64,000 nt of DNA. It comes from Cephalotus follicularis (lineage: Eukaryota > Streptophyta > Magnoliopsida > Oxalidales > Cephalotaceae). The DNA lies in the NCBI GenBank assembly GCA_001972305.1, contig BDDD01000310.1, forward strand, positions 388,851-452,850. Reading direction: 5' to 3'. The translations under genes were made by a program, and so were the position numbers. Every line of letters starts with the position of its first letter. The first letter of the stretch is position 1. Positions 1,791-50,462 of this stretch are shown piece after piece. Under the pieces are notes generated by a model. It was given only the letters and a program-made list of their open reading frames with translations. It made no database searches and was not told where the DNA came from.

Positions 1791-1794
1791 ATGA

Positions 1795-2640
1795 ACAAAG
1801 CCACCCCTAGGGGAGCACAGAAAGCCCCTCCAGGGGGCATTCCAAAAAGACCCCCCATGGGGTATTCCAAAAAGACTCCTCCAGGGGAGCATTCAACAAA
1901 GACTCCTCCAGGGGAGCACTCAATAAAGCCTCCTCTAGGGGAGCACAAAAAAACCTCCCAGGGGGCATTACAAAAAGACCCCCCAGGGGGCATTCCAAAA
2001 AGACCCCTCCAGGGGAGCATTCAACAAAGACTTCTCCAGGGGAGCACTCAACAAAGGATCCTCCAGGGGAGCACGGAAAGACCCCCCATGGGGCATTTCA
2101 AAAAGACCCCCCATGGAGCATTCCAAAAAGACCCCCCAGGGAGCATTCCAAAAAGACTCCTCCAATGGAGCACTCAACAAAGCCTCCTCCAGGGGAGCAC
2201 GGAAAGACCCCCAATGGGGCATTACAAAAAGACCCCCCAGGGGACATTCCAAAAAGACTCCTCCAGGGGAGCATTCAACAAAGACTCCTCCAGGAGAGCA
2301 CGAAAAGTCCCCCCAGGGGGCATTACAAAAAGACCCCCCAGGGGGCATTCCAAAAAGACTCCTCTAGGGGAGCATTCAACAAAGACTCCTCCAGGGGAGC
2401 ACTCAACAAAGCCTCCTCCAGGGGAGCACGGAAAGACCCCCCCAGGGGGCATTAAAAAAAGACCCCCCAGGGGGCATTCCAAAAAGACTCCTCCAGGGGA
2501 GCACCCAACAAAGCCGCTTCCAGGGGAGCACTTAGAGACTGCACCAGGGGAGCATTCAACAAAGCCTCTTCCAGGGGAGCACTGAAAGACTCCTCCAAGG
2601 GAGCACCCAACAAATCCTTCTCCAGGGGAGCACTTAGAGA
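1795..2640 (+). repeat. 27-bp tandem array inside the Gypsy element
   Basis: About 30 imperfect units of 27 bp follow the pattern AGGGGAGCATTCAACAAAG plus ACTCCTCC, with variants such as GGGCATTCCAAAAAGACC. Because 27 is a multiple of three and the unit lacks stops, several frames on both strands stay open for hundreds of bases; the forward frame would read as a nine-residue GEHSTKTPP repeat. I treat these frames as by-products of the array, not genes. A related array follows at 3610-3860. Confidence 0.85.
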
Positions 2641-2699
2641 CTCCTTCAGGGGATTATTCTGAGAAGCCTCCCAAGAGAGCATGTCGAGCAGTCTGGGCA

Positions 2700-2975
2700 G
2701 ACGTGCAGAGCAGACATGCCGAGCAGACCAAGCAAACATGCCAACCAGTGATGTGTGTCCTGGCTGAGCTGACCCTTGCTGTGTGCTAACCAAGCAGACA
2801 TGCTGAGCAGACATGCCAACCAGTGATGTGTGTCCTGGTTGAGCTGACCCTTGTTGTGTGCTGACCAAGCAGACATGCCGAGCAGACATGCCAACCAGTG
2901 ATGTGTGTCCTGGCTGAGATGACCCTTGCTGTGTGCTAGCCGAGCAGACCAAGCAGACAAGTGATGTGTGTCCTA
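2700..2975 (+). repeat. 75-bp tandem array (about three copies)
   Basis: The segment starting CCAACCAGTGATGTGTGTCC recurs at 2741, 2816 and 2891, an exact 75-bp period with few mismatches, and a partial fourth copy follows. Its flanks carry GCAGACATGC words. It lies in the internal non-coding part of the Gypsy element. Confidence 0.85.
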
Positions 2976-3109
2976 GCCAAGCAGCCCAGGAGGAGGACCA
3001 GAGGAACTCCTAAGATGAGGACCAGACGAGACTCCCACAAGGAGGACTAGAGGATACTCCCAAGAGGAGCACCAATGAACATATTTCCAAACCACAGGGA
3101 AGGGAGCCC

Positions 3110-3560
3110 AGCGCCATGGATCCCCGACGCCTTCCTTCCTTAGCACCATGGACGCCATGCATGCTCCAGCGCCTTGCTTCCTCAACACCATGGACCCCGG
3201 CACCATGCATCTCAGCACTGGAGCCCATTGCCATGCATCCTCAGCAGCCATGGATCTCGGCGCCATGCCTCCTCGTCTCCTCAGCAGCCATGGAGCCCGG
3301 AGCCTTGCATCTCCGCACCATGGAGTTCAGTGCCATGCATCCTCAGCAACCATGGAGCCCGGCACCATGCCTCCTCGTCACCTCAGCAGCTATGGAGCCC
3401 GGTGCCATGCATGCTCCAGTGCATCCCCGGTACCTCAGCTACAGTGCCTTGCATCTCTCCTCAACGCGTCATGCACCTCGGTACCCCGACACCTCAATAC
3501 CCTGGACCCCTACTACAGAGAAAGAGCTCGGCACCTCGGCGCTTAACCATGGAGAGCTCG
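3110..3560 (+). repeat. Degenerate CCATGGAGCCC/CATGCATCC repeat block
   Basis: Words such as CAGCAGCCATGGAGCCCGG and ACCATGCATCCTCAG recur many times with irregular spacing. Several frames remain open, but composition and repetition argue against a real protein. This is another satellite-like block inside the Gypsy element. Confidence 0.65.
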
Positions 3561-3609
3561 GCACTTGCATCCTTGGACAGTGCATGGGTGGCGGCAAGCA
3601 TGCTCAGTG

Positions 3610-3860
3610 CATGGATGGTACACCTCCCCAGGGAGCAAATAAAAAAGACCCCCCATGGGGCAATTCAAAAAAGACCTCCCAGGGAGAAAATAAAAAAGAC
3701 TCCCCATGGAGTAAATAAAAAAGACCCCCCAGGGAGCAAATCAAAAAGACCCCTCAGGGAGCAAATAAAAAAAGACCCCTCAGGGGGCAAATCAAAGAAG
3801 ACCCCCCAGGGAGAAAATCAAAAAGACCCCCTAGGGGGAAAAAAAGACTCCCTAGGGAGC
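3610..3860 (+). repeat. Second 26-27-bp tandem array
   Basis: Repeats of CAGGGAGCAAATAAAAAAGA plus CCCCC follow each other for about 250 bp. The unit is clearly related to the array at 1795-2640 (same AGGGAGCA core and AAAAAGACCCC tail), so one repeat family has been expanded twice in the element. Confidence 0.75.
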
Positions 3861-4301
3861 ACACTCTGGTCGGCAATATCATGGGAACTTGTTCGACCAG
3901 ACCTAAAATCGTGTATTGAAAGGCGAATCCATGGGAACTCGTAACGATCAAGCTCGTTGTACTGAGCACTTTGAAACAAGTGTCCCTACAAGTACTGCAA
4001 GCTCAGATGACCTGGTTCAAAACATGATGAACCAGACGATATCCTGCTCGGCAAACCAATAGGAACTTGTCCGAGCAGACCAAAAACTTAGTCTACGAAC
4101 ACACCAAAACTCGTAAAGACTAAATCATTTTGCCTAAGCGTCTTTGAAATAAGGTGTCCTGAGAGGACTACAAAGTTTGGGTAATTAGGCACGAAAATTG
4201 TAAGGTCACAACATAAAGTCTGTAAGTTAGACTAAATTTCCTAAGGGAGCATTGCTTGGGTAAGAACTCTCAACTCTGCTCCTCCTCCTATGCCAAGGCC
4301 A

Positions 4302-4324: not shown

Positions 4325-4880
4325 TGATGTGAGAAATTTTCTATTTAAAGCATAGTGCCACGTGCCCTCAGGAGAAGATGTCATATGTCTTTTCCAGGCA
4401 TGGACACGTGGCCCAACGTTATAATTTGAATGGCAATAATGTGTCGTGATCCTCGGGCGTTGCCAGCCCATGACCAGAGACGTGCACGGTACTAAGTCCT
4501 AAAGGGAAAGTGCCACCAAATCCGGCGGAGATCAGGGGAAATGCTCGGGCTCCTCGGGCATTTTCCTTAGGAGCAACCATCAACTCCTATTTCTACGCTC
4601 AACAGTTACATTGGAGGTCTATAAATACAAAATCAAACGACTTCAACAAAGTCAGTCACTTTAGCACTCAAAAGAACCTAGTATTCTCTGTGCAATTACT
4701 AACTTGAGCGTCGGAGTGTCCCCGGGAGAACAACCTCCTGGACCTTCAACCTTTGTGCTCTTATTGTGCAGGGATCGTCAACCACGAAATGACCTTTCTC
4801 TGACAGACTCCAGCGTTTCTCTAAACAAATCAAGCCCTTACACGTGGGATACTATTGAGGGAAGGATTTTTGTATCAACA
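4325..4880 (+). mobile_element. 3' LTR of the Gypsy element
   Basis: The LTR starts TGATGTGAG and ends ATCAACA. It contains a TATA box (CTATAAATAC near 4619) and a downstream block, TTGAGCGTCGGAGTGTCCCC then GGGAGAACAACCTCCTGG, shared with both solo LTRs. At 556 bp it is about half the length of those two, because its 5' portion is shorter. Short frames within it are not genes. Confidence 0.8.
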
Positions 4881-4994
4881 ACATTCATAGACGTTTTTGG
4901 ATTTGATTTTTTATTATTACATATAGTTAACGCTTTTCTAATTTCTAAAAATTACAAAAATACAATTTTTATTAGAAAAAATCTCACCCATAAA

Positions 4995-6279: not shown

Positions 6280-7692
6280 TGTTAGAATACTCCCCTTCTT
6301 TACTCGCCTAATAACACTCCCTTTATTAATTTATGGTTTGATCTATTGGAACATGTTTATTAATTTTAAAATTAATCAGATATTTATAACTATCATATTG
6401 AATAATAAATTCTTTAATAGATCATGAAAAAATTTCATTCATGCATGACAATTTAACCTATTGATATGGGAAAAATCTGTTTGTATTAAGAACCTCCTGG
6501 ATAAAGCCACGTGTCTATAGATTTCTTTTTTGAAGCTAACACGAACATGGGTCAGAGAAAGCTTATCAAGGCGACTCGCAGTAACAAGTCAGCAGACCCT
6601 CGCCAAACACCAGGGCCAAGGAGAGCTAGCTTGACCAAGAGCGCATCACAGGACGATCGCGCCGAGGACCTCCTCGGTCCGAGGAGCTTACTTAGGGCAC
6701 GGATCAGAGGACCTCCGTCAAGGCACCAGTGCCGAGGACCCCCTCTACCCGAGGTGTCTATCGGACACATAGCAGAGGATGTGCCCCCACTGCACAGATG
6801 CCGAGGACCTTCTCCTCGACGGTATCCAGAGAGACCCCAACCTCGGGTGAATGTTAGAGGACTCGGCGTCCTAAACGTACGCCACTGAGGAAGCACCAGA
6901 AGATGAAGACCCAGGAGCGAAAGGGGAAGCAAGAGGCCCATCACCTCGGTAACAGTACCATGGTTCACTTCCTCGGCAGCCTTGTGGCAGAAGACCCCCA
7001 CTTCGTTTATGGGATAAGGGCATGGAATTTACCTGATTTCCTGGGATTCGCCTTCATCTAAATAAGGAAGTAGTGGTATAATGAACTACCAACAAGGGAA
7101 GTGGCGACATATTTGGCGGAGATCAAGGGAAATGACCGAGATCCTCGGTATTTTCTTAGGTGACAGTTATCACCTCCTTATTTCACGCTCAAACAGTTAC
7201 AGTCCAGCACTATAAATACTAGTTCAACAGTCTGAACAAAGGTCAACCATTTTTACTCTAAAAAAGAACCTTGTTTTCACTGTGCAAAACCTATCTTGAG
7301 CGTCGGAGTGTCCCCGAGAGAACAACCTCCTGGACCTTCAACGTGTTTGTTCCTCTGTGCAGGGAAAGCATTAACAGTCATCTTCTACTTATTCCTCGGA
7401 GCATAAAACCAGCGTTTCCTTAAACAAATCAAGCTCTTACACGTGGGGTACTGTTGAGGAAAGGATTTTTGCATCAACACCTATTATATAATTTTTTTTC
7501 ATGTACTATATATTAAAGAGTTTATTTTTGTTCAATATGATAGTTATAAATATTTAATTGATTTAAAAATTGACATGCATATTTTATCTATATAATATAT
7601 TAAATCTAATGATTAGATATAAAAAATACAAATCATAAATTAGATTAATGAATAGAGTGTTGTTAAGAAGAGTGACGCTAGTACTCCTTATT
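6280..7692. mobile_element. Foldback MITE split by a solo LTR
   Basis: The left arm (about 6280-6461) and right arm (about 7480-7692) are inverted copies of each other, for example AATCAGATATTTATAACTAT on the left against its complement on the right, and CATTCATTAATCTAATTTAT-like ends. The solo LTR sits between them, almost exactly at the centre of the palindrome. A related foldback element lies at 18915-19225. Confidence 0.6.
6462..7479 (+). mobile_element. Solo LTR (Gypsy family), TSD CCTAT
   Basis: The 1018-bp sequence starts TGATATGGG, ends ATCAACA and is flanked by a perfect 5-bp target duplication CCTAT (6457-6461 and 7480-7484). It contains a TATA box (ACTATAAATACTAG near 7210) and the same TTGAGCGTCGGAGTGTCC block as the other LTRs. 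There is no internal region, so unequal recombination between the LTRs of a complete element is the simplest origin. Long frames inside it are not genes. Confidence 0.9.
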
Positions 7693-8070
7693 ATTTAAAA
7701 ACGATTAAATTTTACATACGTATATAAACACAAGAAAATATTTTACATACGTATAGGTGGTTAAAATATTTTAAGAAAAGCTAAAAAATATAATAATAAA
7801 AAAGTTACATAATCACATGGCATATATATTATTTGAAGTGTAAAAAGTTAAAACTTTTATTGAAGCTAATTCTATTAACCAATTTATCTATCATTTTTTT
7901 TTTTCATATTTGAGATTTCTTAATTATGATTGATATATATGTCAATGTATGTCTATCTTTCATTGTCAATTATTTGCTTATCGTACACCTCCATAATAAC
8001 CCCTCATAACAAGTGTAGGATCGGTCACTATTCTATATATATAATATATGAAAAAAAGTATATATATATT
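7693..8070. other. AT-rich intergenic sequence
   Basis: Nothing coding is seen. It forms the left flank of the Mutator-like element. Confidence 0.4.
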
Positions 8071-8576
8071 TATGTTCCATTTCTGTCCATGTAATCAGTT
8101 GCCTTGTGTTCACTAGGCCTTGGACTTTGATTTTTCATTTTACTAGCAGTCATGGCGCTTGATTTCTTAACATTTTACTAGCAGTCATGGCACTTGATTT
8201 CTTAACTGTATTACATAAATCAGGGAAGGGTCACATCATTATTTATAACAAATTGTTTTCTTTTCTTTTTTTTTTTTTGGAAAAAACAAATTGTTTTCTA
8301 TCTTAAGAGAAAAATCAATTAATGTTCCTGTCACTTATGAATTATTTATAATTTTTTCAATTTTTTTTTTGTGTTCCCGGTTGTCATGATAATTTGTCAC
8401 AATTACTTGGCATGGTACTTTAAATCCAGTTTGCATTTTTTTTTGGTGAAGAGTAATTGGATGTGAGGCTTAATATATCCTTATGTGGATGGATTCTAAG
8501 GCTACTACATGAAGGGTCGTTGCTTGGTTTCTAAAGTAATATATTTGATTTGCTTTTATGTAGTTTGAAAAAAAAA
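8071..8576 (+). repeat. Left TIR of the Mutator-like element
   Basis: It starts TATGTTCCATTTCTGTCC. It differs from the right TIR mainly by a local tandem duplication of about 35 bp (ACTAGCAGTCATGGCGCTTG and then ACTAGCAGTCATGGCACTTG) and by homopolymer lengths. Confidence 0.8.
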
Positions 8577-8583
8577 GAACCTC

Positions 8584-9723
8584 AAAGACATTGAGTGGCT
8601 AAATGTAATTTTTAAAATTCGTCAGAGTTGGATACCGACCTACGCTATGGATCAAAATATTTTCACAGCTGGAATTCGGACTACTCAACGGGCTGAAAGC
8701 ATGAATGCATTTATTGATAAGTTTGTGAAAAGCAAGAATACCTTATTGCAGTTTGTACTTCATTTTGATAGAGCCATAAAGAAACAACGACACAACCTAT
8801 TGGCTGCCGAACATGAAAATCTATATAATAAACCACGATTGTCAACCAGTTGTGAAATGGAGATTCAAATGTCAACTATATACACGAGAGCAAAGTTTAG
8901 TGTTTTCCAAGATGAACTTCATCGAAGCTTGAATTATGCCACAAATATTCTTCATCTTGATGGACACCGTCGCATCTACATGGTAAAACAGTTTTGTGGA
9001 ATTGACAAAGAAAGGGCATTTGAAGTCAAGTACCATGGACATGATGAACCGGCTATTTGTGGTTGTAAGATGTTTGAGTGTGAGGGAATCCCATGTAGGC
9101 ATATCCTTGTTGTTCTAAGGAATGAATTTTTGACAACCCTACCACCTCAATATATCCTTAAAAGACGGACCATATCAGCGACAAGAGACGTGGTTGTCGA
9201 CGATGCCGGTGTTGAACTAGGAGGCAAGTATGCAAAAAAAACAAAACTTGATTATTATGCGTATGACCAATGATTTCTATGCTATTGTAACTATGGTCAA
9301 AGATTCCAAAGAATTGGAAGAAATGGGTGAGAAGTTGTTGTCTGATGCTCGCAAAGAAATTGAAGAGGCTTGTGGTTATAGCATGGAGTCTAGAACCAGG
9401 TCAATATCATTGCCATCTACCATCGAAATTCATCCCCCGGAAATAAGTAAGACAAAGGGCAGTGGTAAACGTTTAAAAGGCGACAAAGAAAAGACTATTG
9501 AGACAACTTCGAAACCACCAAGGTTCTGCCGTTGTTGCAAAAAACTAACCCACCATGATAGTCAGAATTGTCCGCTGAAATTCAGGTGATTATTATATTA
9601 TTAATGAATTGTGAACCCATTTATTATGTGTTTTTTCATGCTTTGATTTGGTTTTGGATTTATTAAGAAATAACCTATCAGTTTTCGTATTGCAGTTCAT
9701 CGTCGGCCAATGATGACGAATAA
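8584..9723 (+). pseudogene. FAR1-related (FRS)/MULE transposase C-terminal remnant
   Basis: The frame runs uninterrupted from the inner edge of the left TIR. It shows the end of a MULE transposase domain (AGIRTTQRAESMNAF), then a SWIM zinc finger of CxCxnCxH form (CGCKMFECEGIPCRH, about 9058-9102), as in FHY3/FAR1-family proteins, which are themselves domesticated MULE transposases. A frameshift near the run of A at 9233-9240 moves the reading to another frame, which continues with a Cys/His knuckle (CRCCKKLTHHDSQNC, about 9526-9570). A probable intron (donor after 9587, acceptor at 9695) leads to a short last exon ending TAA at 9723. The N-terminal FAR1 DNA-binding domain and most of the transposase core are missing. 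It may be the element's own decayed transposase or a captured FRS gene. Confidence 0.7.
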
Positions 9724-10310
9724 AGAAATTTCAAGTACATGCACTGGACCTCTTCATTCCACCACCAAGTTTCTTTAGTTAGTGGTATTATGAATATATG
9801 TGTATTTAACTGTTTTCCCCCTTTGTTATCATGATAAACTTGCCGTCTTCCCCCAATCACCTTGTTCCCACCCCAAGGAGGCAAAATATATTGGTTGTTA
9901 CGGAATCACAATGAGGACTTGTCATCTACAAAGATGGTCCGCGTTAGCCATCTCATTAGACACTTTTTTTTTCTTTTTCAATTCAGCTATATCATTAACT
10001 TCTTCTCGGTATACTTCTTTTATTATTTCATATCTTCATTTGATATTCCCAAAAAGTTGATCTTCTTTGATGTGTGTTTGGTTATGTCATTGGAATAAGG
10101 TTTTATAAATAGTTAATCATACAATTTTCACCTTAGCAACCTTCTTCGTGCTTTGAAATTAGAAAATGACCATAAACATGAAATTCTGCTAGTCATCTTG
10201 TGTCATTTACCTATATTTTGAGGAGAATTTATTTTATCCTTTGTTAAATTGGTACATTAAGATTTTACTCTATCTTTTGTTAAACTGTTACTTTATGATT
10301 TCCATCTCAG
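9724..10310. other. Non-coding interior of the Mutator-like element
   Basis: No similarity is recognised. It ends in a pyrimidine-rich stretch and TCTCAG acceptor directly before the aminopeptidase exon, so part of it is probably a captured intron. Confidence 0.4.
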
Positions 10311-10445
10311 GCGTTGATAAATGCTGCATCTTCTGAGGGTGACCTTGAGGATGAGATCGGTGTTAGAATGGTGGCATTATTTGATCATGAGGAGGTTGGA
10401 TCTGATTCAGCACAAAGAGCCGAATCCCCTGCCATTTTTATTTAA
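10311..10445 (+). pseudogene. Aspartyl aminopeptidase (M18) exon fragment
   Basis: Directly after an AG acceptor the frame reads ALINAASSEGDLEDEIG and then VRMVALFDHEEVGSDSAQ. This is a highly conserved stretch of plant aspartyl aminopeptidase (M18 zinc peptidase, which removes N-terminal Asp/Glu), including the metal-site FDHEEVGS segment. Downstream the usual GAGSP motif is altered to RAESP and a stop follows four codons later. Only this exon is recognisable, so it is a non-functional gene fragment, most likely picked up by the surrounding Mutator-like element. Confidence 0.75.
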
Positions 10446-11719
10446 TGTCTGGGTTTTGTTGCCTAAAAAAATATTTTCACAGCTTTAATATTCGACAACT
10501 TTTATGCTATATTTTAATATGTTATTATTGTTGCTTTATGTCTAGATGTTATTATTGTTTCTTTATGTCTAGATGTTATTATTGTTATTTTAATACTTTT
10601 TATGCTAAGTTGCATGAATCCTAAACAGATTCAGTGGATTATAGTATGCAATAGTAGCTGTTTGAAGGCATTGTCATATTTGACTCATAAGTACCATGTG
10701 TAGAGACAAAAGTGGAAAGTGTCTAATGGGGATTAATCGCATCCATATAGCCAATAAGTAATACTTTTAGAAACGTTGTTGATTTTGTTATATTGATTTC
10801 TTTTTAACTGCTTGAGAAAGCAGTCTAAAGTAGTTTCCTTGTCTCGGTCGATATGGCACATGCCCTACATCCAATTAATAGTGAGTTACAGCTGAGGATA
10901 ATTGATGTATTCTCAGCAGAGGATAATTGGGACTGTTGTTCCACAGACAGGTTATTTGAGTTCATGTTCCAATCTAAATGGACCATTTGGTTTTCATGTT
11001 AAGAGTTTAGAGTTGAATAAATGTGTTTGAAATATATATTTTATTATCCACGCATGGTTGTACCAGGGTTGCATCCTCTTGACACTCAAGCCAAAATCAA
11101 TTTTATCCCTGTTACATGGTAGAAATACTTTCCATATCTGCTTAGTACTAAAAATTGTTTAGTTCCACAAGGGAGTTCATGATTCTAAGCAGAAACGAAA
11201 TGAGCCACAAATTAAAAAATATAGCAACAATGCCAATCATTGCAACAAATGAGCCACAGATTTAAAAATATAGCAGCAAATGAGCCACAAATTCAAATAT
11301 ATTTCAGTAATATGACAGTATATATTAGCTAAAGGGAAATTATCCAGCATCGTGGATTAATTACTTCATAGATGATTACATAAAGCACAAGAATCCTGCC
11401 CTTTTCCTAGTGCATGCTCCCCACTGCCTATCGGCTCTGGTCTGGCTCCTTTCTTTCCAATGAGGGGTATAGACCTACATGTCAACTGTAATCTTCGAAT
11501 CAAGATGCGAATTCTCTCGGAAAAAAGGCCCTGAAGCATTGACAAAATAAGTTAAGAGGAAATCATGAAAATCAGAAAATCATGACCAACATGAATTTGT
11601 AACGAAACGATAAAATTAAACGTTTGTACTTTATTGTCCTTGATGTGTTCACTCTCTAAACCCTTCGGAAATTCGTTTATAGTCCTCCAAATATCCAATC
11701 ATAGACATAATTGTTCAAA
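10446..11719. other. Non-coding interior of the Mutator-like element
   Basis: No gene recognised. Short local repeats occur (GTTATTATTGTT-type at 10520-10590, and ATGAGCCACA words at 11200-11290). Confidence 0.4.
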
Positions 11720-12194
11720 CTTTTTTTTTCAAACTACATAAAAGCAAATCAAATATATTACTTTAGAAACCAAGCAACGACCCTTCATGTAGTAGCCTTA
11801 GAATCCATCCACATAAGGATATATTAAGCCTCACATCCAATTACTCTTCACCAAAAAAAAAAATGCAAACTGGATTTAAAGTACCATGCCAAGTAATTGT
11901 GACAAATTATCATGACAACCAGGAACACAAAAAAAAAAATTGAAAAAATTATAAATAATTCATAAGTGACAGGAACATTAATTGATTTTTCTCTTAAGGT
12001 AGAAAACAATTTGTTTTTTCCAAAAAAAAAAAAAGAAATGAAAACAATTTGTTATAAATAATGATGTGACCCTTCCCTGATTTACGTAATACAGTTAAGA
12101 AATCAAGTGCCATGACTGCTAGCAAAATGAAAAATCAAAGTCCAAGGCCTAATGAACACAAGGCAACAGATTACATGGACAGAAATGGAACATA
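11720..12194 (-). repeat. Right TIR of the Mutator-like element
   Basis: It is the reverse complement of 8071-8576, ending GGACAGAAATGGAACATA. Identity is about 97 percent by eye, ignoring homopolymers and the left-side duplication. Confidence 0.8.
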
Positions 12195-13919
12195 ATCACT
12201 GGACAGAAATGGAACATAATCACTGTAAAACCTTATTTTAACAATAAAATCACCAAAACATTAAATAAAACAACAAATTGTTTAATATCAGTATACAAGA
12301 ATATGAGGATTTCAAAAGTAAAGAGAGAGAGATAGCGTATCGAAGAGCGAACTATGAAAAGAGATAGCACACACCAATCAAAGAGCGAACCGTGAAAAGT
12401 CAAAATAAGAGAAGAATAGGGTAATGGTATTTTAGATTTGAGTGAGACGGAGATGGAGTTTTGAGAGAGATGAGTGAGACAGAGAGAGTTTTTGAGAGAG
12501 ATCGGTGAGAGGGAAAGGTGTGGAGAGAGATTGGGGGAGAGAGATCGTTGTGGGAGTGGTGTTGGCTGTCAGACTCTGTTTTTTTTTTTTTTAATCTGAA
12601 CCATTCATATTTTCTAACTAAAATCCAATGGCTAGAATCAACTATGCGTTTTTAAGAGAATATCGTTACCTGCTCTCATTATCAGGACTATATATATATA
12701 TATATATATATTGTGGCAATATCCACCAGCACCTCACGTGGATGCTACTTGAGTGCTAAAGACAATGGAACACAGAAATAAATCATCTTTATTTTCTAGC
12801 GATGTGGTCACCACATCCAAATACAATATAACACCAGTTCTTAATTCGATTTCTTTACCAGATCCCCTACATTTGGAGTTTAAGAGAGGTAACCCTTATA
12901 AAAAAAAAAAAACTAGTGTTATCAAGTAATTACTATTATATAGGATCTCATGTAAATGCATCTCTAAAATAATACAAATACGAAGTTTCTCATGCGATAA
13001 GATTATCTTTAGCTCAAATAGGTTTAGTGAAGGAAGGGAACACGTCGTCTTGTGAATGCTCTGCTTGTTTTTGGTGAAATTCAACACAAACCGTACAAAT
13101 ATTGAATCGATATCTTCTTCTTTGACCCTGTCAATAGTCAACGACAACCTCTGAATATCTTTTATATAGTAGTCATATTAATTTTAACGTATATTGTATA
13201 CATCGTATCAAATCGTATCTTTGTATTTATTACGTTACTATATAAATTTTTATTAATCCTGTATAAAATATTCTCCATATACACATTTTGACAGGTTTCT
13301 TTTCCTAGTATCATAGTATTTATTATACAGATTCTATATAAATTCTTCGAAACTCTGTATAAAATGTTTTCTATATATATACACATTTTTGTCAGGTTTC
13401 TTTTCCGTAAACTCCAAAAGGATGCGTTTTAATCATCTTTGCCAACTACACACCACTAATGTTGTCGTTATTACTTTCTTTTTAGTCCTTACTCCTTCCC
13501 TCCAAACTTTCCCTTTTATCAGTAGACAGTAACCCACAGAGACTTCTCAGTGTCATTACTCTTTTCTTTTCAGGTTTCTGTTTTTTGTTTTTTTTGTTTG
13601 AATAAACAAAAACATTTTCTCTGTTTGTTTGTTATATAATTTCTTTAATGGTTTTTTTTTGGGGGGGAATCTGTTTTACTTTGTTTTGTTTCTAAAAAAC
13701 TAGAAAAGCATGAGAATTTTATAAACCTGAAAGTTCACAGCATCTGTTTGTTGTTGTTCCTTGTCTAAAATCACGTGAATGTGATACTTCTGTTTTGCTT
13801 TTGACCTTCTTTTTTAACGTTTTGTTTTGCTCTTTGTCTTTTACTAGGTGAAGATTTGTTTATGCTAAGGTTAATAGCTCAAAAACGGTTATGGGTGTCT
13901 TAGTTTTTTATGCTTATTA
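12195..13919. other. Intergenic sequence upstream of the EDR4-like gene
   Basis: It holds a purine-rich GAGAGA-rich stretch (12310-12550), an AT dinucleotide run (12689-12711) and a roughly 100-bp imperfect direct duplication (about 13239-13305 and 13335-13407, both ending CAGGTTTCTTTTCC). The last 400 bp are T-rich and probably contain promoter and 5' UTR. No gene is seen. Confidence 0.4.
12689..12711. repeat. (AT)n microsatellite
   Basis: An uninterrupted TA run of about 22 bp. Confidence 0.85.
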
Positions 13920-16900
13920 ATGGCTCAAGAATCAAAAGTGAGATTAGTTCGTTGCCCAAAATGTGAAAACCTGCTACAAGAGCCACCTGACTGCTCAATG
14001 TATCAGTGTGGTGGTTGTGGTTCTGTTCTTCGAGGTAAATAATTTCTCTCTGTCAATTTTTGTTATAGTCCTTAATTATTTTAATTTTTGTTTGGTTGCA
14101 GAGAAAACAAAGCAAAAGAGAAAATGGTTCTTAGTTCTACATATAGCCGTTAAAATTGCAAATTTTGTTGTTATCGTTTATGTGTTGCACCCTTTTCTTT
14201 TTTATGGTTTTTTGGCCTTTTTGTGTTGGTTTATACCAACGAATTTGGCATTTTGGGTTATATTGAGAGTTTTGAGTTGAATTTTTTGATGATACAGCTA
14301 AGAAAAAAGGGTCTGCAAGTGATGGGGTTTTAAAGAAGTTTGAAGGGGAGAAGGGTAAAGAGAATTATGAGAATTTGGAATGTTTGCCAGAGAGAGAGGG
14401 TGGTAGTTTAGGTAGTATATCTGAGATTGAGAGGGGGATTGGTGAAATTGGGAATTGTAGGAGAAACGAGAGTGACTTTGGAGACAGAAATGTTAATTTG
14501 ATCACTAGTTCTTCAATAGAAAAAGAGAAGAAAGGGGTTTCTGTTGTGAGGGTACAGAATGTGAATCCAAGGCTTAAGCAAAGTAGTGCAGAGAAAGAAA
14601 TTGGGTATGCTAATAAACATAGGGAATCATCAAGGCAACAAACTGATGATTGGATTCATGGTGAGGTGGATGACATGAATATGTGTATGTATGGTTCTGT
14701 TGATTCTAAAATGGATAAAGGTATTGGAAATGTTTCAGCCCAATTGAAGAGCTTTGGCTCAAGGCCAGTTATGGACCGCAATGGTGTTGAAGGATATGGT
14801 TACAGAGGAGTTTATAGTAACCCCAGGAAAGCTGTTGAGAGAGGTGGAGTTTTGACTTATCCTGACGAGGGGCCTTCAAATTATAAGCAGGTTTCATTCT
14901 ATGGCTATGATGAGCCAATGAATAATTATGGTCACCATGATGACACTTGTAGGGCTGAAACTTTGGAACATGATAGAGCTGTGCTTCTTAGGAAGTTGGA
15001 TGAGTTGAAGGATCAACTTAGCAAGTCATTTGATGCAGCGGAGAAACCAAGCGAAACGTTTCCTGTTGATAGGAAAATGGCTCCTCCGGACCCCCGTGGT
15101 GGTCGTGTTACTTATAATGTTTCCACGCAGCCTGTTGGCTGGGATAATTATGTCCCAAAGCCACCTAATTTCAGTAAACCTAATCCTTTGATGAATACTC
15201 ATGGCACAGAGATGCCGAATGTATTTTCTCATCCATGGCATGCCCCACGTGAAATTTCAAGGTATGGGGATCCATTAAGGCTACAATCACTGTGTAGACC
15301 TTCCAATCTACATCGTAGGCTCCCACAAAGATCAACTCATGACCATTTTCCACGGCATTATACGGGTTTCAGTAAAGATCACTCTACATCCGATCCTTGT
15401 GAACCTTTTTTTCATCAGCATGCCTGCTCATGCCCACGCTGCTACTACGAGAACTGGCGACTTCCTCCACTAGCCCCACCCAATGTTTTTGGTAGTGGAG
15501 AGTTGTTGAAGAATCCCATAAATTCCAATTTCTACCAGTATGCCAATCCTGTTACATTTGGGGCACATAATTGTAGTTCTCGAGCCGATCCTGCATTCGG
15601 TTCTAAAGTGCCCCAGCTACACACTAGATGTCCCGGTGACTTTGATCCAGCTACAGGTCGGAGACATCCAAGAAGGGTGGTTGTAGCCCATGGAGAGAAA
15701 CAGCTTTGTCATCCGATAGCGGGTGGTGCTCCTTTCATAACGTGCTACAATTGCTTTGAGTTGCTGAAACTCCCTGGTAAAATTAGGATGATGCAAAAAG
15801 ACCGGCAGAAACTACAATGTGCCACTTGTTCAACTGTTATCTCGTTTAAAATTGAGAACAAAAGTCTAAATATTTCTGTTCCTACCGAAACTAGGCAAGC
15901 AACTGCTGAGGCTGATAATGGCCTTTGTGAGTTATTGCATAGAAGTCTTGCAAATTCTCAAGGTTGTTCAAATTTTGGTGGCACGAACTACTGCTCTGAG
16001 AACTTTGATGATTCTGGTTATAATATCAGCTCCACAGATGCCAAACAAAATTTGCTATCAGAAGATCAAATGTTGAACTTAAGCAAGTCTAAGACGAGGC
16101 AGGGCCTTTCTTCTTCATCTTCCACATTTCGAGAACAAGAGGAGAGTTCAGATAGTGTGATTGAACACAGAAATGTGCGCAACTCTGCTGAGCTGCCCTC
16201 AAATGATAATTCATCTCCGACAGTTTCCGGTTCACCTTTCCAAGAGAAGTTTGATAGTTCTTCGTCTGATCATGCACTGAGCAGAGATGGAGAGGGAGAG
16301 AAGATTAAGTGGACAGACCAAGAGAAGTTTATCCCTAGAACAAATGCCTCTAGACAGGATGCGGCAAAGGATGAATCAGTGGAAACTAAGGTGGAAGTTT
16401 CTTCCAGTGAGTATTTGGATTCCAGCTTATCTCAAGACTTAATGAAGGTAAGCAGAGAAGTGGGTCGGCCCAGGATAAACAAAGGGAGTGAATCCTTCTT
16501 GGTGGGAATTATCAAGAAGAGCTTTAGAGATTTTTCCAGCTCTAATCATAGTGTGGAGAATCAAAGACCAAATGTTTCAGTTAACGGGCAACCTATACCA
16601 GATCGTGTGGTTAAAAAGGCTGAAAAACGAGCTGGGCCAATTCTTCCTGGAGACTACTGGTAAGTTAATACCTAGATGCATTGCATGTCTTCTTTGAGAG
16701 TGTTAATCTGTTCTAAATTTGAAATATGTGTCATATGATAAAATAGCAGGAATATCAATATAATGGTGCAGATAAAATAGTTAAAATAAGAGTCCTAATG
16801 ATAAGAAAGGTGCTAATATCTTCACAATACATGTATAATAAAAATTTTGAAGTCTGTAGAAAACACTGTACGAAGTTGAAGGTTATTAGAAGTCATAGTG

Positions 16901-20398: not shown

Positions 20399-21513
20399 TG
20401 ATATGGGGAAAAATTAAGTCAAAATTGATGCAACACGTGTCCCTGCGCAAACACGGCCAGGTGTCCAAGAGATAAGAATTAATGAATTAAAGGCAGAGGA
20501 AGCACGTACGCCAACGTAACAGTGGTAAAGGGAGTTTTCTTCCTCGGCACAAGTGCCGAGGACACATCCAGTGATTCTAGTGCAACAATCTACCTCCTCG
20601 GATTCGGGTCCGAGGACACCATTTGGAGCAACCCAGCCGAGAATACCCTCGGCCACATAACAAGCGATCTATTACAAGTGACTCCATAATCAGTGAACTG
20701 GTATCAGGGGAAGTCAACAAAGAAATAACTTAAGGAGGTCCACTCCTCGGCATAAGTGCCGAGGACACGCTCAATGGCTCCACTTCCAAGATCTCTTTCC
20801 TCAGACAAACAACCAAAGGCCATCCAATTCGAATACAGGTCTATGGGCCGAGAAGACTTTGAAGTCAGGGGCCGACTATCTCATTGGCCTTACATCAGCT
20901 CCTCTTCTCGGATAGAAGGTCTCCTCCTCATTCACGGAATGGGGATAGGGAGTTAGCCTAAATTCCAGGGATCCTTATCCTCTAAGTAAAGGAGATAAGG
21001 ATAACTACCAACAGATATGGAAGATAGGATAAAGTGAATAACTTCACCAGATTTCATGGGATCCATACCAATCCAAACAAGAAGATAGAATCCTGATCAA
21101 CTACAACAAAGGAAACGAGATAATTAAGGAGGAGATAAAGGAAAGAAGAAAAAAATCAGGTGGAGATAAGGGAAATCCCGAGATCCTCGGAATTTCCTTA
21201 GGGGACAGTCATCAACTCCGATTTTCACGCTCCAACAGTTACAAAACTCCACTATAAATACAAGTTCAACATACTGAACAAAGGTCAGCAATTTTTACAT
21301 TCAAGAGAGTATAATCATTCATCTGCACTTGACTAACTTGAGCGTCGGAGTGTCCCCGGGAGAACAACCTCCTGGGCCTTCACCATTGTTGCTACTTGTG
21401 CAGGTGTCCGAGATCAGTTTCTTCCTCACAGGCATTCAGTGACAAGCGTTTCTCTTAACAAATAAAAGTCCTCCACGTAGGATACTGTTGAGAGAAGGAT
21501 TTCTGTATCAACA
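20399..21513 (+). mobile_element. Solo LTR (Gypsy family), TSD GATTG
   Basis: The 1115-bp sequence starts TGATATGGGG, ends ATCAACA and is flanked by perfect 5-bp duplications GATTG (20394-20398 and 21514-21518). It carries a TATA box (CACTATAAATACAAG near 21251) and the shared TTGAGCGTCGGAGTGTCCCC block. Three hairpin-forming CCTCGG...CCGAGG palindromes lie in its first half (20542-20561, 20596-20615, 20745-20764). It is the same family as 6462-7479. Confidence 0.9.
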
Positions 21514-27057: not shown

Positions 27058-29618
27058 CTGATACTGCAACTGATTGGATCCAGGCCACTAAGAAACCAAG
27101 AAACAACAGAAGGGCACTGAAACAGAAAAATTCATCACCAAATGAGGCCAAAATAATGGTTCAAAAGCAACCCTCACCAACCCCAGTTCCCCCTCCAACG
27201 AATGACGAGAACCATGAGACCCTTTCTCAGCCTGCATCCTTCCCGAAAAAGGCGAAAGCCACCAGGGCCTCAAAAGCTGCCAAGAATCAGCAAAAGACTT
27301 CTTTTGAGAAAGAATTGGAAGAAATGCAAGAAATGTTGAAAAAGATGATGATAGAGAAGGAGAAGACTGAGGAGTTGTTGAAGGAGACAGATGAGAAGTT
27401 GAAGGTGAAAGAGGAAGAGCTTGAGAGCAAAGAAAGGGAGTTGAAGAAGCTGCAAAAGATGAAGGAGTTTAAGCCCACCATGGTATACCTATTTCTTTTT
27501 TCATGAAATAGGGAAAATATCTAATTTTGATTTGATTTTTCATTTACCATGTTTCTCTTGATGCTTTTGGATGGAGTTCAATTACCCTCTGTTTGGTTCC
27601 CTAGAAAATGTGGTAAAAGTGATGAAAAGGAACAAATTTTTAAATTTTAGGGTTTTGTTAAAAGGTTTCATAATCTCTCTTGCATTCTTTGATTTTCTCT
27701 CATATGATAATTGGATTTAATTGATAGTTTTTGAGGTATCTAGATTTTCTTTTATTATGTTTGGAGGGTACGTAGATAATTGATTTCTAGGGTTAATTGA
27801 TCTTTCTTCAGACTTTCCCTATATCGAAAGACATGGAGCAAGACAAGAAGGAAAAGAAGAAGAAGGGTGGCCCTGAAAAGAAAAGGCCATCTCCACCTTA
27901 CATTCTATGGTGTAAAGATCAGTGGAATGAGGTAAACATTGAAATGGGTTATCCAAATTGATATATAATATCTCTGTTTCAGATTTGTTGTTTATATTAT
28001 TTGGGGGTTTTGGTGTGTAGGTCAAGAAAGAGAACCCAGAAGCAGAGTTTAAAGATATCTCAAACATTTTGGGTGCAAAATGGAAGAATGTTAGTGCAGA
28101 AGAGAAGAAGCCTTATGAGGAGAGGTATCAAGCTGAGAAGGAAGCCTATCTGCAGGTGATGGCAAAGGAGAAGCGTGAAGGTGAGGCGATGAAGCTTTTT
28201 GAGGAAGAGCATAAACAGAAGAGTGCCATGGAGTTGCTTGAACAATATCTCCAGTTCAAGCAGGAAGGAGATAAGGAGAACAAGAAAACCAAGTAAATTC
28301 CATTACTCTCTCTCTTAATTTCTGTTTATCCGATCATGGCATTAGTGATATCTGATATAATGATATTGTTTATTTACAGGAAAGAAAAGGATCCATTGAA
28401 ACCAAAGCATCCCATGCCTGCATTTTTCCTGTATTTGAATGAGAGGCGGGCAGCTCTTGCAGAGAACAAGAATGTTATAGAGGTAATTGAAAACCCCCTT
28501 CACTAATTGGCTTTTTAGTTATCATTGACTTTTTTTGTTGATTTATCTTTGGCTCTTTGGCAGGTAGCAAAGATTGCTGGTGAAGAATGGAAGAACATGA
28601 CTGAAAAAGAAAAAGAGCCTTATGAAGAGATGGGAAAGAAGAACAAGGAGAAGTACATGCAAGAGATGGAGGCTTACAAACAGATGAAGGATGATGAAGC
28701 CAACAATCTGAAAAAGGAAGAGGAGGAGCTGATGAAGCTTCAGAAGCAAGAAGCCTTGCAACTGCTAAAGAAGAAAGAGAAAACAGAAAATATAATCAAG
28801 GTTGGATTATATGTTACCCCTTACCATAAACTTTGATTGATACTGGTTATTTCGGAGTTTTCAATGGTGGCTGATTATGTAATGTAATGACAGAAAACCA
28901 AAGAGAATCGCCAGAAGAAGAAGCAGCAGAAGGGAGAGAAGAACACTGACCCTAACAAGCCCAAGAAGCCTGCATCCTCCTTCCTTCTATTTAGGTAAAA
29001 GCGAAAGTCAGTTCAAAGATCAAATTACAATATTGATGTGCAAACAGAATAGCTGAGTCATATATTGTTATTGTTGATCACAGCATAGAAGCAAGGAAGA
29101 CTCTGATGCAGGAGAGACCAGGGATCAACAGCTCTACCCTCAGTGCACTGATTTCAGTGAAATGGAAGGTATGAATTTTGTGTCAGAATTTGCTTTATAA
29201 AATGAGAAACCCATGTTCTAAAATGTGTTATTATGGGTTATATAGGAACTTAATGAAGAAGAGAGGCAAGCCTGGAATGCCAAAGCAGCTGAAGCTATGG
29301 AAGCATACAAGAAGGAGATGGAAGAATACAACAAGTTTGTTGCAAACACACTAAGTCACAACAACGACATACCCTCAGTGCACTGATTTCAGTGAAATGG
29401 AAGGTATGAATTTTGTGTCAGAATTTACTTTATAAAATGAGAAACCCATGTTCTAAAATGTGTTATTATGGGTTATATAGGAACTTAATGAAGAAGAGAG
29501 GCAAGCCTGGAATGCCAAAGCAGCTGAAGCTATGGAAGCATACAAGAAGGAGATGGAAGAATACAACAAGTTTGTTGCAAACACACTAAGTCACAACAAC
29601 GACATGTTCATATGTTGA
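27054..29618 (+). CDS. Three-HMG-box chromatin protein (HMGB6/13-like)
   Basis: Exons are 27054-27482, 27812-27931, 28021-28292, 28380-28482, 28564-28800, 28894-28994 and 29084-29168, then one of two last exons: 29246-29386 (495 residues, ends IPSVH) or 29481-29618 (494 residues, ends MFIC). The N-terminal ~140 residues are basic with a long Glu/Lys coiled coil. Three HMG boxes follow: ~166-233 (RPSPPYILWCKDQWNEVKKE), ~281-350 (HPMPAFFLYLNERRAALAE) and ~409-478 (KPASSFLLFSIEARKTLMQE). This arrangement defines the plant 3xHMG-box proteins, which bind DNA and associate with mitotic and meiotic chromosomes in Arabidopsis. The 235-bp tandem duplication at 29135-29604 creates the two possible ends. 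The second is probably ancestral, since the first reads into duplicated sequence out of frame. Confidence 0.9.
29135..29604 (+). repeat. 235-bp tandem duplication across the last HMG intron
   Basis: 29135-29369 and 29370-29604 are two copies differing at one position by eye (TTTGCTTTAT against TTTACTTTAT). Each contains the end of exon 7 with its donor, a 77-bp intron and most of exon 8. The length is not a multiple of three, so read-through from copy one to copy two changes frame and stops at 29386. Confidence 0.95.
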
Positions 29619-46387: not shown

Positions 46388-46595
46388 GTAACATTGAAAC
46401 CAAAAAAGAAAAAAGAAGAATAAAAGAGGAATCTATTCTAAACAATACCACTTTCTAAAAATCCAATCTTGTGATGATATGAAAGATAAGAAAACTTGAA
46501 ACTCAGAAAGAAATAATGTGATCCTCTTTAAAAAAATACAAAGAAAATAAAATAACATTTTTATCACATAGCCATTGGGATTCATTGCTTTTGAA

Positions 46596-47115
46596 CCGTG
46601 GCGGAGCCACGTTTGTACGAGTGGGTGCCACTGCACCCACTCAAGTTTTATTAAAAAAAAATTTTGAACAAAAAAAAACTGTTAAAAGGTTATAAGTAAA
46701 AGCATAATAAATAAAAAAACATTTACACTCTCAAACTTTCCCATTAACGGCGCCCATCACAAACATTATCTCTTCCATCCGAACTCTCACAAACAGTCTT
46801 CCTCTCTCACCTAACCTCAACTCTCTCTACCCACCAAATCTCTCTCTCCTCCATCCAGTGGCGGAGCCACGTTTGTACGAGTGGGTGCCACTGCACCCAC
46901 TCAAGTTTTATTAAAAAAAATTTTGAACAAAAAAAAACTGTTAAAAGGTTATAAGTAAAAACATAATAAATAAAAAAACATTTACACTCTCAAACTTTCC
47001 CATTAACGGCGCCCACCACAAACACTATCTTCTCCATCCGAACTCTCACAAACAGTCTCCCTCTCCCACCTAAACTCAACTCTCTCTACCCACCAGATCT
47101 CTCTCTCTCCTCCAT
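46596..47115 (+). repeat. 260-bp tandem duplication of the hAT left end
   Basis: 46596-46855 and 46856-47115 align almost throughout (GTGGCGGAGCCACGTTTGTA through the CTCTCTCC-rich segment). Each copy starts with the element's terminal repeat. Confidence 0.85.
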
Positions 47116-47391
47116 CCACACATCTCTCTCATCAACGGCGCCCACCACCACCACCACCTCTTTTTTCAGCAGTTAAGTTTTTTTGTTTTATTTTTTTTTC
47201 ATTTTTGTTAATTAACTTTTTTTTGTATTGCTTTTTCCATTTTCATTATTTTAACTGTTAGGTTTTTATTTTTTAAATTTATTTTTGTTTTATGTTTTTT
47301 TTTCAGCACTCATTTTTGTTAATTAAAAATTTTTTATATTGTTTTTTCTATTTTCATTATTTTAACTGTTAGGTTTTTATTTTTTACAAAA

Positions 47392-48573
47392 AATGATGTT
47401 CAAGTTGCTTTGCTCTTCAATTTGGTTGCTAGTTTATCTAATATTGTTGGAGCTTCATGCAAACGACGAGACATTCTTCGAGAAAAAGAAGCTGCTAGAC
47501 TTACTAAAGCATTTGGTAGTGGTGAAGTCACTAGTGGTCAAGGTTTAAATCAAGAAACTAGTCTTAAAAGGGCAGGAGAGACGCGTTGGGCTTCACATTA
47601 CGGTGCACTAATGAACTTGATTCTTATGTTTTCATCAGTGATTGATGTGCTTGAAATTGTAAGGACGGATGGTTCAAGTTTAGAGCAAAGAGCCGAAGTA
47701 TCTGCCATATTGACTTTTGTACAAACTTTTGAATTTGCATTCAACTTAAACTTGATGAAAACTATTTTGGGAATGACAAATGACCTTTCGCAAGCATTGC
47801 AAAAGAAAGATCAAAATATTATAAATGCAATGCACTTGGTAAGAGTATCAAAGCAACAATTACAAATGTTGAGAGATGGTGGATGAGAAGATTTACTAAA
47901 AGAAGTTTTGTCATTTTGCGAAAAGAACAACATTGAAATCTTGAATATGGATGAGAAGTTTATAGCCCCAGGAAGATCACGACGAAATGTGGAAGAAACT
48001 ACAAACTTACACCACTTCCGTGTTGAAGTATTTTATTCTGTGATTGATTTGCAGATTAGGGAGCTTAATGATCGGTTTAATGAGGTGAACACAGAGTTGC
48101 TTATATGTATGGCATGTCTTGACCCGAGTAATGTATTTTCTGCTTTTGATAAGCAAAAGTTGATCCGCCTTGCAAACTTTTATCCATCCGATTTTTCTCC
48201 AGTTGAGCTCATGGTACTTGAAAGTCAGCTTGGGACTTACATATTAGATGTGCGCTCCAGGGCTGAGTTATCTAATGTGATGGGAATTGGTGAACTTGCT
48301 ATTAAATTAGTCAAGTTGAAAATGGATGATATATATCCTTTAGTGTATTTGCTTGTGAAATTGGCATTGCTTTTGCCTGTTGCAACTGCTACTGTAGAAA
48401 GGGCATTCTCTTCTATGAAGATTATGAAGACTCGACTACGTAATCGAATGGGAGATGAATGGATGAATGATAGTTTGGTTGCATACATTGAGAGAGGAAT
48501 ATTGAAAACTATTGATAATGATACTATTATGAATCGTTTTCAGAATATGAAAACTCGTCGAGGAGTACTTTAG
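47392..48573 (+). pseudogene. hAT transposase C-terminal part (ZMYM1/TTF-type) with nonsense codon
   Basis: The frame reads VGASCKRRD...ETRWASHYGA and later the hAT dimerisation domain YPLVYLLVKLALLLPVATAT, ERAFSSMKIMKTRLRNRMGD, as in plant zinc-finger MYM-type protein 1-like transposases. A TGA at 47884-47886 stands where TGG (Trp) is expected; the frame then continues to TAG/TAA at 48573. The N-terminal TTF zinc finger and DUF4371 part are missing, so it cannot be autonomous. Confidence 0.8.
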
Positions 48574-49037
48574 TATCTTTGTATACTTTTCTTTTTTGTA
48601 AAACATGGAAAGTATGTTTAACACTTCTTTTTGATAAAATAACTAATTTATTTGAATTTTGTATTTTCATTATCTTTTATATTAACTTTAAAATTTATCA
48701 AGTTAATATATTTTTTGTATCCATTGACATAAAATCCTGACTCCGCCACTGCTTATGAAGGATTTGTCTCCTCTCCAATTGAGATTAGCTCCGTTACTCT
48801 CTAATGCCTATTTTACACAAACTTTAACTGAAATGGATCCTAATTCTTGAAAACCTTACTTCTTATTAACCCAACGTGTAATATAAGGAATGATTCTCAC
48901 ATTGTCACAAATCACATGACACCAAAGTCAACCAATTAACAAACAAAGCATAGCAGACTACGATTGCTTAACAAGAATACATGACAACAAAAGAGATAAC
49001 CTCCAACAAATAAAAGAAACCAAAAACTAGAACTTTG

Positions 49038-50462
49038 TCATTTTCTCTGGTTTCTCAATATTTCTGCTACTTCAGCAAGTGATTTTGTAGATGATCCATC
49101 TTGGCTCAAAGCCATTGCTGTAGCATACTTCAATTCCCTCATCTTACCCTTAACCACCTTCCCTTCATCTCCTTCTATTAGCCCCCTCAAACATTTTGCA
49201 ATATCCTCTCTTAATACTACTCCATTTTCATTAGCTTTAACCCTTAACGCAACCTTTAAATCATCAGCTAGCAACACCGAATTCATTCTTTGCTCCGCAT
49301 ATAGTGGCCATGCAATGAGGGGCACACCATGCACTATACTCTCCAATGTTGAGTTCCACCCACAATGTGTCAAAAACCCTGCAGTTGAGCCATGACTCAA
49401 TACTTGAACCTGAGGTGCCCATGAGGACACCACTAGACCCACCCCTTTAGTCCTCTCCAAGAACCCAATTGGCAAAAAATGAAAAGGGTCTTTTATGCTT
49501 CTTGCACTGAAGTAAGTGGCATTTGCTTTATCATGTGGGCTCCTCACTACCCAAAGAAATTTTTGCCCACTCATTTCCAAGCCAAAAGCTAGTTCAATCA
49601 GCTGCACATGTGAGAGAGTGCCACCGCTACCAAAAGACACAAATATCACTGACCCACTTGGTTGCTTATCCAACCAATCCAAGCACCCTGAACCATCAAA
49701 ATCATTTATTGAATCACTCTGTATCAACGGTCCAACCGGGTAAACCGGAGGTTTACCCGGTTCACCCATCAAAGCCGTGAATGCACCCGGTTCCAATCCC
49801 ATAAAGCTATTAACCATGATTCCAGCAGCCGCTGGATAACCAGTCTTGGCACCGTGAAGAAGCATTTTATAGGCCATGTCGTTCCTATCTTGAACTGGGT
49901 CAGCGAAATCGGTTCCATGAAGAGGTACACAACCGCGTAAATTGAGCGGTTCGGGTAAATCTCTATACTCACCAGAGAAGTCTTGATCAAGCTTAGGTAA
50001 GTGAAAAATAAACGACAGCAACATTGCTGTCGTAGGGAAGAACATATAAGGAGCGAGACCAAGTTCTTTAGCCGTTTCAAAAGCACCAATACCAAAAAGA
50101 TCAACAACTAAAGCAACTAGCCGAGTTGACTCGGTTAGCAACTTTAGAGAGTCTTTTAAAGCAGGAAGTGACCGAGTCAGGGTGAGTTCGATCCGAGTCT
50201 CCATCTGGGCATCCTCAGGAAAGTCATGGAAGCTCACAGGAGGGAGAAATATGGAGGAAATGGATTCGGGTAGCGCTTGAAGGACTTGTTTTTTAGGTCC
50301 TAATGGTGACCCATCAGTAGGGATAATGAAGGTAATGTGAAAGTTGTGGTGGTGAACGAGGCGTTTAGCTAACTCAACTAGTGGCATTAGGTGGCCCATG
50401 CCTGGGGTAGGTACCATGGCTACATGGAATGGTGGTGTCTGTTGTGTGTGTTCAATTTCCAT
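49038..50462 (-). CDS. UGT72B-type glucosyltransferase (hydroquinone glucosyltransferase-like)
   Basis: A single exon of 474 residues, typical length for family 1 UDP-glycosyltransferases. The catalytic His lies in PTPGMGHLMPL (His24), paired with Asp121 in VVDLFG. The C-terminal PSPG box runs from Trp348 to Gln391 (44 residues: WAPQVQVLSHGSTAGFLTHC...YAEQ); the final Gln favours UDP-glucose. The whole sequence resembles UGT72B enzymes (arbutin synthase, Arabidopsis UGT72B1), which glucosylate small phenols such as hydroquinone, chlorophenols and monolignols in the cytosol. The actual acceptor cannot be read from sequence. AT-rich TATA-like tracts lie upstream (50505-50530). It is intact, and flanked on both sides by hAT copies. 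Confidence 0.95.
   Translation of the reverse strand: MEIEHTQQTPPFHVAMVPTPGMGHLMPLVELAKRLVHHHNFHITFIIPTDGSPLGPKKQVLQALPESISSIFLPPVSFHDFPEDAQMETRIELTLTRSLPALKDSLKLLTESTRLVALVVDLFGIGAFETAKELGLAPYMFFPTTAMLLSFIFHLPKLDQDFSGEYRDLPEPLNLRGCVPLHGTDFADPVQDRNDMAYKMLLHGAKTGYPAAAGIMVNSFMGLEPGAFTALMGEPGKPPVYPVGPLIQSDSINDFDGSGCLDWLDKQPSGSVIFVSFGSGGTLSHVQLIELAFGLEMSGQKFLWVVRSPHDKANATYFSARSIKDPFHFLPIGFLERTKGVGLVVSSWAPQVQVLSHGSTAGFLTHCGWNSTLESIVHGVPLIAWPLYAEQRMNSVLLADDLKVALRVKANENGVVLREDIAKCLRGLIEGDEGKVVKGKMRELKYATAMALSQDGSSTKSLAEVAEILRNQRK

Follow-up and report, generated by a model that had tools for sequence, protein, structure and literature searches.

FAR1 and Jittery are related, and the mode by which Mutator-like elements (MULEs) acquire pieces of genes is still debated. 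MULEs that target microsatellites are represented by MuTAnT of Medicago, which has a Jittery-like transposase (PMC4486113), and by the SaTar MULEs of guayule and rice (PMC5907723). Transposase-bearing MULEs with transduplicated genes, either ULP sequences or pieces of cellulose synthase, have been described in grapevine (PMC2528002). In Pack-MULEs and Pack-TYPE elements, pieces of host genes lie between the terminal inverted repeats (TIRs), and Pack-TYPE annotation sets transposase-bearing elements apart as autonomous (PMC8903248). Mu killer, a rearranged maize MuDR, is an internally deleted MULE in which both TIRs come from one end (PMC3440606). The parts considered of three further papers (PMC8599713, PMC9168764 and PMC13317346) leave our conclusions unchanged. 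Here we describe an element in a 64,000-nucleotide stretch of the Cephalotus follicularis genome (GenBank contig BDDD01000310.1, positions 388,851 to 452,850), hereafter the window, with positions counted from its first letter. The window copy is very probably a rearranged relic of a cargo-carrying, microsatellite-targeting FAR1-type MULE, in which an inverted copy of the right end stands in place of the left end and the 5′ half of the transposase gene. This structure is directly visible in alignments, and we infer from it a path of interrupted repair.

The inverted arms and the right end of the window copy

Genome searches were made in the window's own genome (1.58 Gb), in which the window lies on contig C310; C-numbers denote contigs. 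Self-comparison and alignment confirm the near-identical inverted repeats of about 0.5 kb that a first-pass annotation had described: two inverted arms, at 8070–8577 and 11720–12195, differ by 7 substitutions in the 373 columns of their shared TIR part (98.1% identity) and by none over the inner 100 bp. The same annotation had taken the arms for a TIR pair and had put the right end of the element at 12194, and neither assignment holds. The right TIR proper occupies 11820–12688 on the forward strand (869 bp, terminus GTCCTGATAATGAGAGCAGG read inward) and extends beyond 12194 to the true end at 12688, with no matching outer part in the left arm.

The left arm (8070–8577, reverse strand) is assigned as an inverted copy of the right end at 11720–12195, lacking the outer ~0.49 kb of the full TIR, because its inner 100 bp (about 8478–8577) are of the right type and unlike left ends. 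They show 0 differences in 100 positions from the right end of the window copy, 0 in 100 from that of the related copy on C579 and 1 in 100 from that on C4254, whereas the C579 and C4254 left ends differ from them at 39 of 79 and 40 of 79 positions, respectively. A right subterminal region at 11532–11819 (forward strand) is absent from the left ends of both these copies; its start is found also on C5952 and C5736. Within the window, a search for a third TIR copy gave nothing more than the arms themselves and 20 matching bp at the extra unit of the right arm. The alignments indicate that both window arms derive from one element end and are not a normal TIR pair.

The window copy shares with Mu killer the origin of both ends from one element end. 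Mu killer, however, duplicates the mudrA side including part of mudrA, whereas the window copy duplicates the far end, without transposase sequence, the duplicated stretch stopping at 8577, before the coding part; furthermore, the outer TIR of the window copy, unlike that of Mu killer as far as it was compared, is missing on one side (PMC3440606).

A recent MULE insertion that is intact and bounded by an ordinary pair of ~0.5-kb TIRs would account for the 98.1% identity of the arms and for their identical inner parts, but it conflicts with the TIR of about 0.85 kb in C579, with a right arm that runs to 12688 when the left does not, with the right-type inner part of the left arm and with the missing 5′ half of the transposase gene. 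It is refuted by the C579 and C4254 copies, and we regard it as highly improbable. The first-pass annotation's reading of the near-identical TIRs as a sign of recent activity is likewise mistaken, since a single end gave rise to both arms and the left terminus has been lost; without this terminus, the window copy can probably no longer move. Near-identical long inverted repeats therefore need not be a functional TIR pair.

Each arm contains a short duplication. A 35-bp unit is present in two copies at 8136–8205 and in a single copy in the five other ends aligned, and a 24-bp unit, in two copies at 12176–12223 (forward strand), is single in the left arm and in the three other ends aligned there.

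Copies of the family and their transposase gene

When the genome was searched with the left arm, paired arms were found on C579 and on C4254, together with weak fragments on two other contigs, C5736 and C5952; the interior of the window copy, used as a query in turn, also found C7065. The first-pass annotation had proposed searching with the TIR for copies with different interiors; further copies do exist on C579 and C4254, with the same aspartyl aminopeptidase (DAP) cargo between transposase and right end. Of the converse picture, a static inverted duplication without other copies, only the first part fits: the left arm does represent an inverted duplication, yet the family has further copies.

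In C579 and C4254 the order is a transposase gene with FAR1, MULE and SWIM domains, captured host DNA and the right end; C7065 shows part of this original order, with one DAP piece after its transposase. Both the left end and the 5′ half of the transposase gene, missing from the window copy, are present in C579 and C4254. The interior at 8572–10566 is 98.3% identical to C579 over 2,001 bp; for the transposase part, alignments of 1,159 bp give 94.9% identity with C4254 and 96.3% with C7065. C579 has long TIRs of about 0.85 kb that are 97% alike (874 bp in a self-alignment that includes surrounding GA repeats) and correspond to window positions 11820–12689, its right end being colinear with 11748–12689; the left TIR of the window copy has been lost.

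The window retains the 3′ part of the transposase gene at 8572–9585 (forward strand), which lies beyond the Pfam MULE domain and includes a SWIM finger and, by eye, a cysteine-rich tail. The frame 8569–9273, which starts just inside the left arm, matches Pfam SWIM at 1.1e-5, in agreement with the FRS-type C-terminal coding sequence that had been noted from the first at this place. Over 223 residues this stretch has 96% identity with a piece of the C579 transposase, and a frameshift in 8572–9585 is common to both copies. A presumed intron (GT...AG, 9586–9695), assigned from the sequence and from its position, which is the same in three copies, is followed by a presumed last exon (9696–9723) ending in TAA, both on the forward strand; after this exon, sequence is common to other copies to about 9815–9861 at most. 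Assignment to the FAR1-type MULEs is based on the C579 frames, which match Pfam FAR1 (1.4e-21), MULE (3.8e-14 and 2.7e-11, in two pieces) and SWIM (5.7e-5), the window having the 3′ part only. A 267-residue frame of C4254 gave no Pfam match at 0.01. The transposase of C579 and C4254 is interrupted by stops and frameshifts, and that of C7065 has stops and lacks the N-terminal part.

Three TIR-related elements on C443, C474 and C3191 (L047, L048 and L049) have inverted ends of 0.86–1.24 kb and microsatellites at both ends; their interiors are different and do not match the window transposase. The right end of the C579 copy contains a MITE-like (miniature inverted-repeat transposable element) insert of about 1 kb (L009:2283–3326) with 91-bp inverted ends of 96.7% identity. 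Beyond the truncated right TIR of C4254 (L010:7158–7300) is a sequence found again in C7065 (L031:7588–7730; 97% over 143 bp), which by eye resembles a CACTA transposase.

Captured host DNA

Host DNA fills the element from about 9813 to 11535. Judged by alignment with its donors, the cargo of the family combines a fragment of a WD40 gene with DAP gene sequence in two blocks that are inverted relative to each other. The WD40-gene fragment (9813–10115, forward strand) matches C141:85844–86153 at 91%, a segment that reads as an intron and lies upstream of an exon encoding WD40; the next exon frame on C141 gives WD40 at 2.9e-7, and two other frames of the C141 locus had no Pfam match.

The first DAP piece (10113–10877, forward strand, sense), from C624:53514–52630, comprises an intron, exon A, a second intron and part of exon B, with 94% identity over 326 bp at 10113–10438 and 77%, in the same orientation, at 10433–10877. 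Exon A (10311–10432, forward strand) is truncated, its end and donor splice site being deleted, and it has the same state in C579 and C4254; its AG acceptor is present. The frame 10299–10445 matches Pfam Peptidase_M18 at 3.2e-7 and, in phmmer, solved aspartyl aminopeptidases (best 3.9e-6). At the part of exon B (10808–10872, forward strand) the acceptor in the window is no longer AG; the donor exon matches Peptidase_M18 at 6.6e-6. The second DAP piece (10870–11535, reverse strand, antisense) aligns in several blocks, at 86–98% identity, with C624:47439–48339, the gene end and downstream region, and includes, at 11475–11535, the part of the last DAP exon that encodes the C terminus (reverse strand, antisense; donor exon 1.4e-24). 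Four of the five tested exon frames of the C624 gene match Peptidase_M18 (2.5e-7, 6.6e-6, 1.4e-9 and 1.4e-24); the fifth, a short N-terminal exon frame, does not.

The peptidase exon with acceptor that the first-pass annotation had recognised is thus present, although not as a single exon: DAP is represented by three exon pieces, of which two are in sense and one is in antisense, and a second locus has contributed a further piece. The alignments identify the peptidase cargo as a genuine capture from the C624 DAP gene, and because exon A and its deletion are common to window, C579 and C4254, the capture preceded spreading. Capture of the exon by a MULE, as initially proposed, is borne out by the transposase–cargo block in other copies and by the donor gene in the same genome. 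The proposed alternative of two older fragments within a new TIR pair is rejected, given that transposase, cargo and right end are consecutive in C579 and C4254. That two donors and an inversion are involved could favor flanking host sequence or independent insertions as the source of the DAP pieces. In C579 and C4254, however, the same pieces, with the same exon A deletion, have the transposase on one side and the right end on the other, and in C7065 one of them comes after the transposase. The shared position and the shared deletion refute this explanation, to which we attach next to no probability.

C4254 and C7065 lack the sequence corresponding to 9731–10245 and hence the C141 piece, which was seen in the window and C579 only. 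Because the missing part includes a donor-colinear DAP intron, the absence looks like a later deletion.

In C579 the host-gene fragments lie between both TIRs, as in Pack-MULEs and Pack-TYPE elements. Unlike those elements as described in the parts compared, cargo and transposase are in one element here, and transposase sequence is found in all four copies with DAP cargo (PMC8903248).

Termini and microsatellite targets

Eighteen ends were examined, and the terminus was recognised by motif in 16 and not in the other two. A dinucleotide tract (at least 8 bp, within 6 bp) adjoins 15 of the 16 recognised termini, the exception being L054, compared with an expected chance of 0.45% per random oriented window position; as the motif was built from the same families, the count is a statement about the family and not a blind test. 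The tracts are assigned to the target because they differ (TA, GA, CA then TA). The right terminus of the window copy adjoins a 23-bp (TA)n tract at 12689–12711, its presumed target, and a (TA)-rich tract at 8026–8069 directly adjoins the left arm and is possibly what remains of the original target microsatellite. By these sequence features the lineage belongs to the FAR1-type MULEs, carries cargo linked to its transposase and targets microsatellites.

The lineage resembles MuTAnT and the SaTar MULEs in its MULE transposase, its TIRs, its termini in dinucleotide tracts and its defective copies (PMC4486113, PMC5907723). It differs, by eye, in the terminus, GTCCTGATAATGAGAGCAGG compared with the published MuTAnT search mask GGGGTTTGCTAGAACA (PMC4486113), and in the length of the TIRs, 0.85–0.87 kb compared with 144 bp in one MuTAnT element and 400 bp in one guayule element; the parts of these papers compared make no mention of host-gene cargo (PMC4486113, PMC5907723).

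MULEs make target duplications of 8–11 bp, and the first-pass annotation had expected one of 9 bp next to its element ends; none was found with at most one mismatch between 8000–8090 and 12180–12300, a range that stops short of the true right end. Comparison of 8010–8080 with 12684–12725 gave 320 matches, of which the ones listed are strings of TA repeats, and such repeats match anyway; target-duplication matches at the ends of the C443, C474 and C3191 elements are confounded by repeats in the same way.

A proposed interrupted repair and the rival of two insertions

Interrupted repair is the most economical account of the window copy. A break or excision at this locus would have been followed by repair synthesis that began at the right flank and proceeded to the left, copying the cargo and then the transposase gene as far as its 3′ half. 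At the A-rich positions 8572–8577 the new strand would have switched onto the right end in inverse orientation, and the right end would have been copied outward to 8070 before being joined to the left (TA)-rich flank.

The same end structure could have been generated if two copies had entered one microsatellite-rich site in opposite orientations and a deletion had then removed all of the first except its right end. The termini of the family in microsatellites agree with this, as does the clustered adjacent insertion reported for a pineapple family of like habit (PMC8449440, in the part consulted), and the 7 substitutions and private indels between the arms are of the kind that separate copies might show. 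Two insertions and a deletion are required, however, compared with one repair event, and among the ends compared the left arm is most similar to the right arm at the same locus (7/373), then to C579 (12/371 and 12/373) and C4254 (17/372 and 23/355). We consider two successive insertions unlikely.

Beyond this competing origin of the ends, several observations weigh against a relic of a cargo-carrying element reshaped by interrupted repair. The repair path is deduced from one copy, and the overlaps at the joints of the left arm are poor: 6 bp with 2 mismatches on the inside and, as judged by eye, 1–2 bp on the outside. At the cargo joints, BLAST overlaps are 3, 8 and 4 bp, the 8 being inexact, and chance alone can lengthen local alignments. 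None of the four copies with DAP cargo, the window copy included, has a complete and uninterrupted transposase. Both termini were seen in C579 only, where one flank reads N.

Other host genes downstream of the transposase

The transposase sequence has at least 41 matches in the genome at 84–100% identity, the window included, a lower bound as 40 of 53 candidates were scored. For 13 further transposase copies among the 41 matches listed, the 3′ side was read. A fragment of a gene that we take to be a UMP-CMP kinase lies downstream of the transposase in four of them (C1108, C3412, C1468 and C5798); it matches Pfam ADK at 1.3e-6 for a composite of two frames, and its second frame gives AAA_17 at 0.0064, under the cut-off. 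A genome search with this piece returned the same four contigs and C4068, where the transposase also matches, as well as a donor-like place on C4442 at 78%. In one of the 13, C1742, a folate dehydrogenase fragment is downstream (THF_DHG_CYH_C, 3.2e-16); this piece is found again on C34, about 0.8 kb from a transposase match, and C1970, C1492 and C2449 match too.

Three host-gene sets are thus recurrent, each being found after the transposase of two or more copies. On account of this recurrence, the kinase-like and folate pieces are placed, provisionally, inside elements. Against taking the genes downstream of these transposases for cargo, the TIRs of the window family and of related families had no match in the 13 sampled 3′ stretches. 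Host sequence downstream of the transposase open reading frame is known, also in Jittery-like families, from grapevine; unlike in the grapevine families, as far as described in the part compared, different host genes occupy the same place after one transposase lineage (PMC2528002). A capture hot spot may lie just downstream of the transposase 3′ end in one transposase-bearing MULE lineage, where interrupted repair would repeatedly swap in fragments of any host gene that happened to act as template; autonomous-type elements, and not Pack-MULEs alone, would thereby exchange cargo, and end replacements like that of the window copy would be by-products of that repair. We put this forward tentatively and think it somewhat doubtful, our estimate being lowered because the right TIRs of other cargo copies were not seen.

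Each part of this combination is known, and their occurrence in one lineage may be new, to judge from open-access titles and abstracts; in the open-access literature we found neither aspartyl aminopeptidase together with Mutator-like elements nor the phrase "autonomous Pack-MULE" with related terms. The copies provide a natural series in which one transposase lineage is followed, in different copies, by no fewer than three sets of host genes. For DAP, the C141 piece and the kinase-like piece, loci that are donors or resemble donors are present in the same genome, and the family is useful for studies of capture. Annotation pipelines that call every transposase-matching element autonomous, in the manner of the scheme outlined in the part consulted, would miss such captures (PMC8903248).

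Among the remaining sampled copies, a mitochondrial-carrier exon on C4404 (Mito_carr 4.9e-9) was first read as cargo, but a genome search gave no second place, and neighbouring gene and cargo are indistinguishable. On C3214 a syntaxin-like exon, below the Pfam cut-off, lies beside the transposase, and C1650 has an exon-like frame without a Pfam match. No gene was recognised on C1970, C627, C2916, C7707 and C86, with one frame each tested against Pfam; C2916 has one weak match under the cut-off (PIGO_PIGG, 0.0086).

Other features of the window

About 1.6 kb past the right terminus of the element, a 795-residue open frame at 14276–16660 is a probable host gene. The start of the window has, by eye, a retrotransposon-like frame, and a G+C-rich repetitive stretch at 1794–3861 has long frames with PPGEHSTK-like repeats. 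A repeat of ~400 bp occurs in three copies at 74–76% (4502–4898, 7094–7497 and 21153–21513), and a 236-bp tandem duplication at 29135–29605 is 99.6% identical. Further inverted repeats at 46585–47118, 48078–48751 and 51222–52117 match over 674 bp at 98%, with shorter pieces at 94–96%; frames that by eye are hAT-like transposases flank a 479-residue open frame at 49041–50477, which by eye is glycosyltransferase-like.

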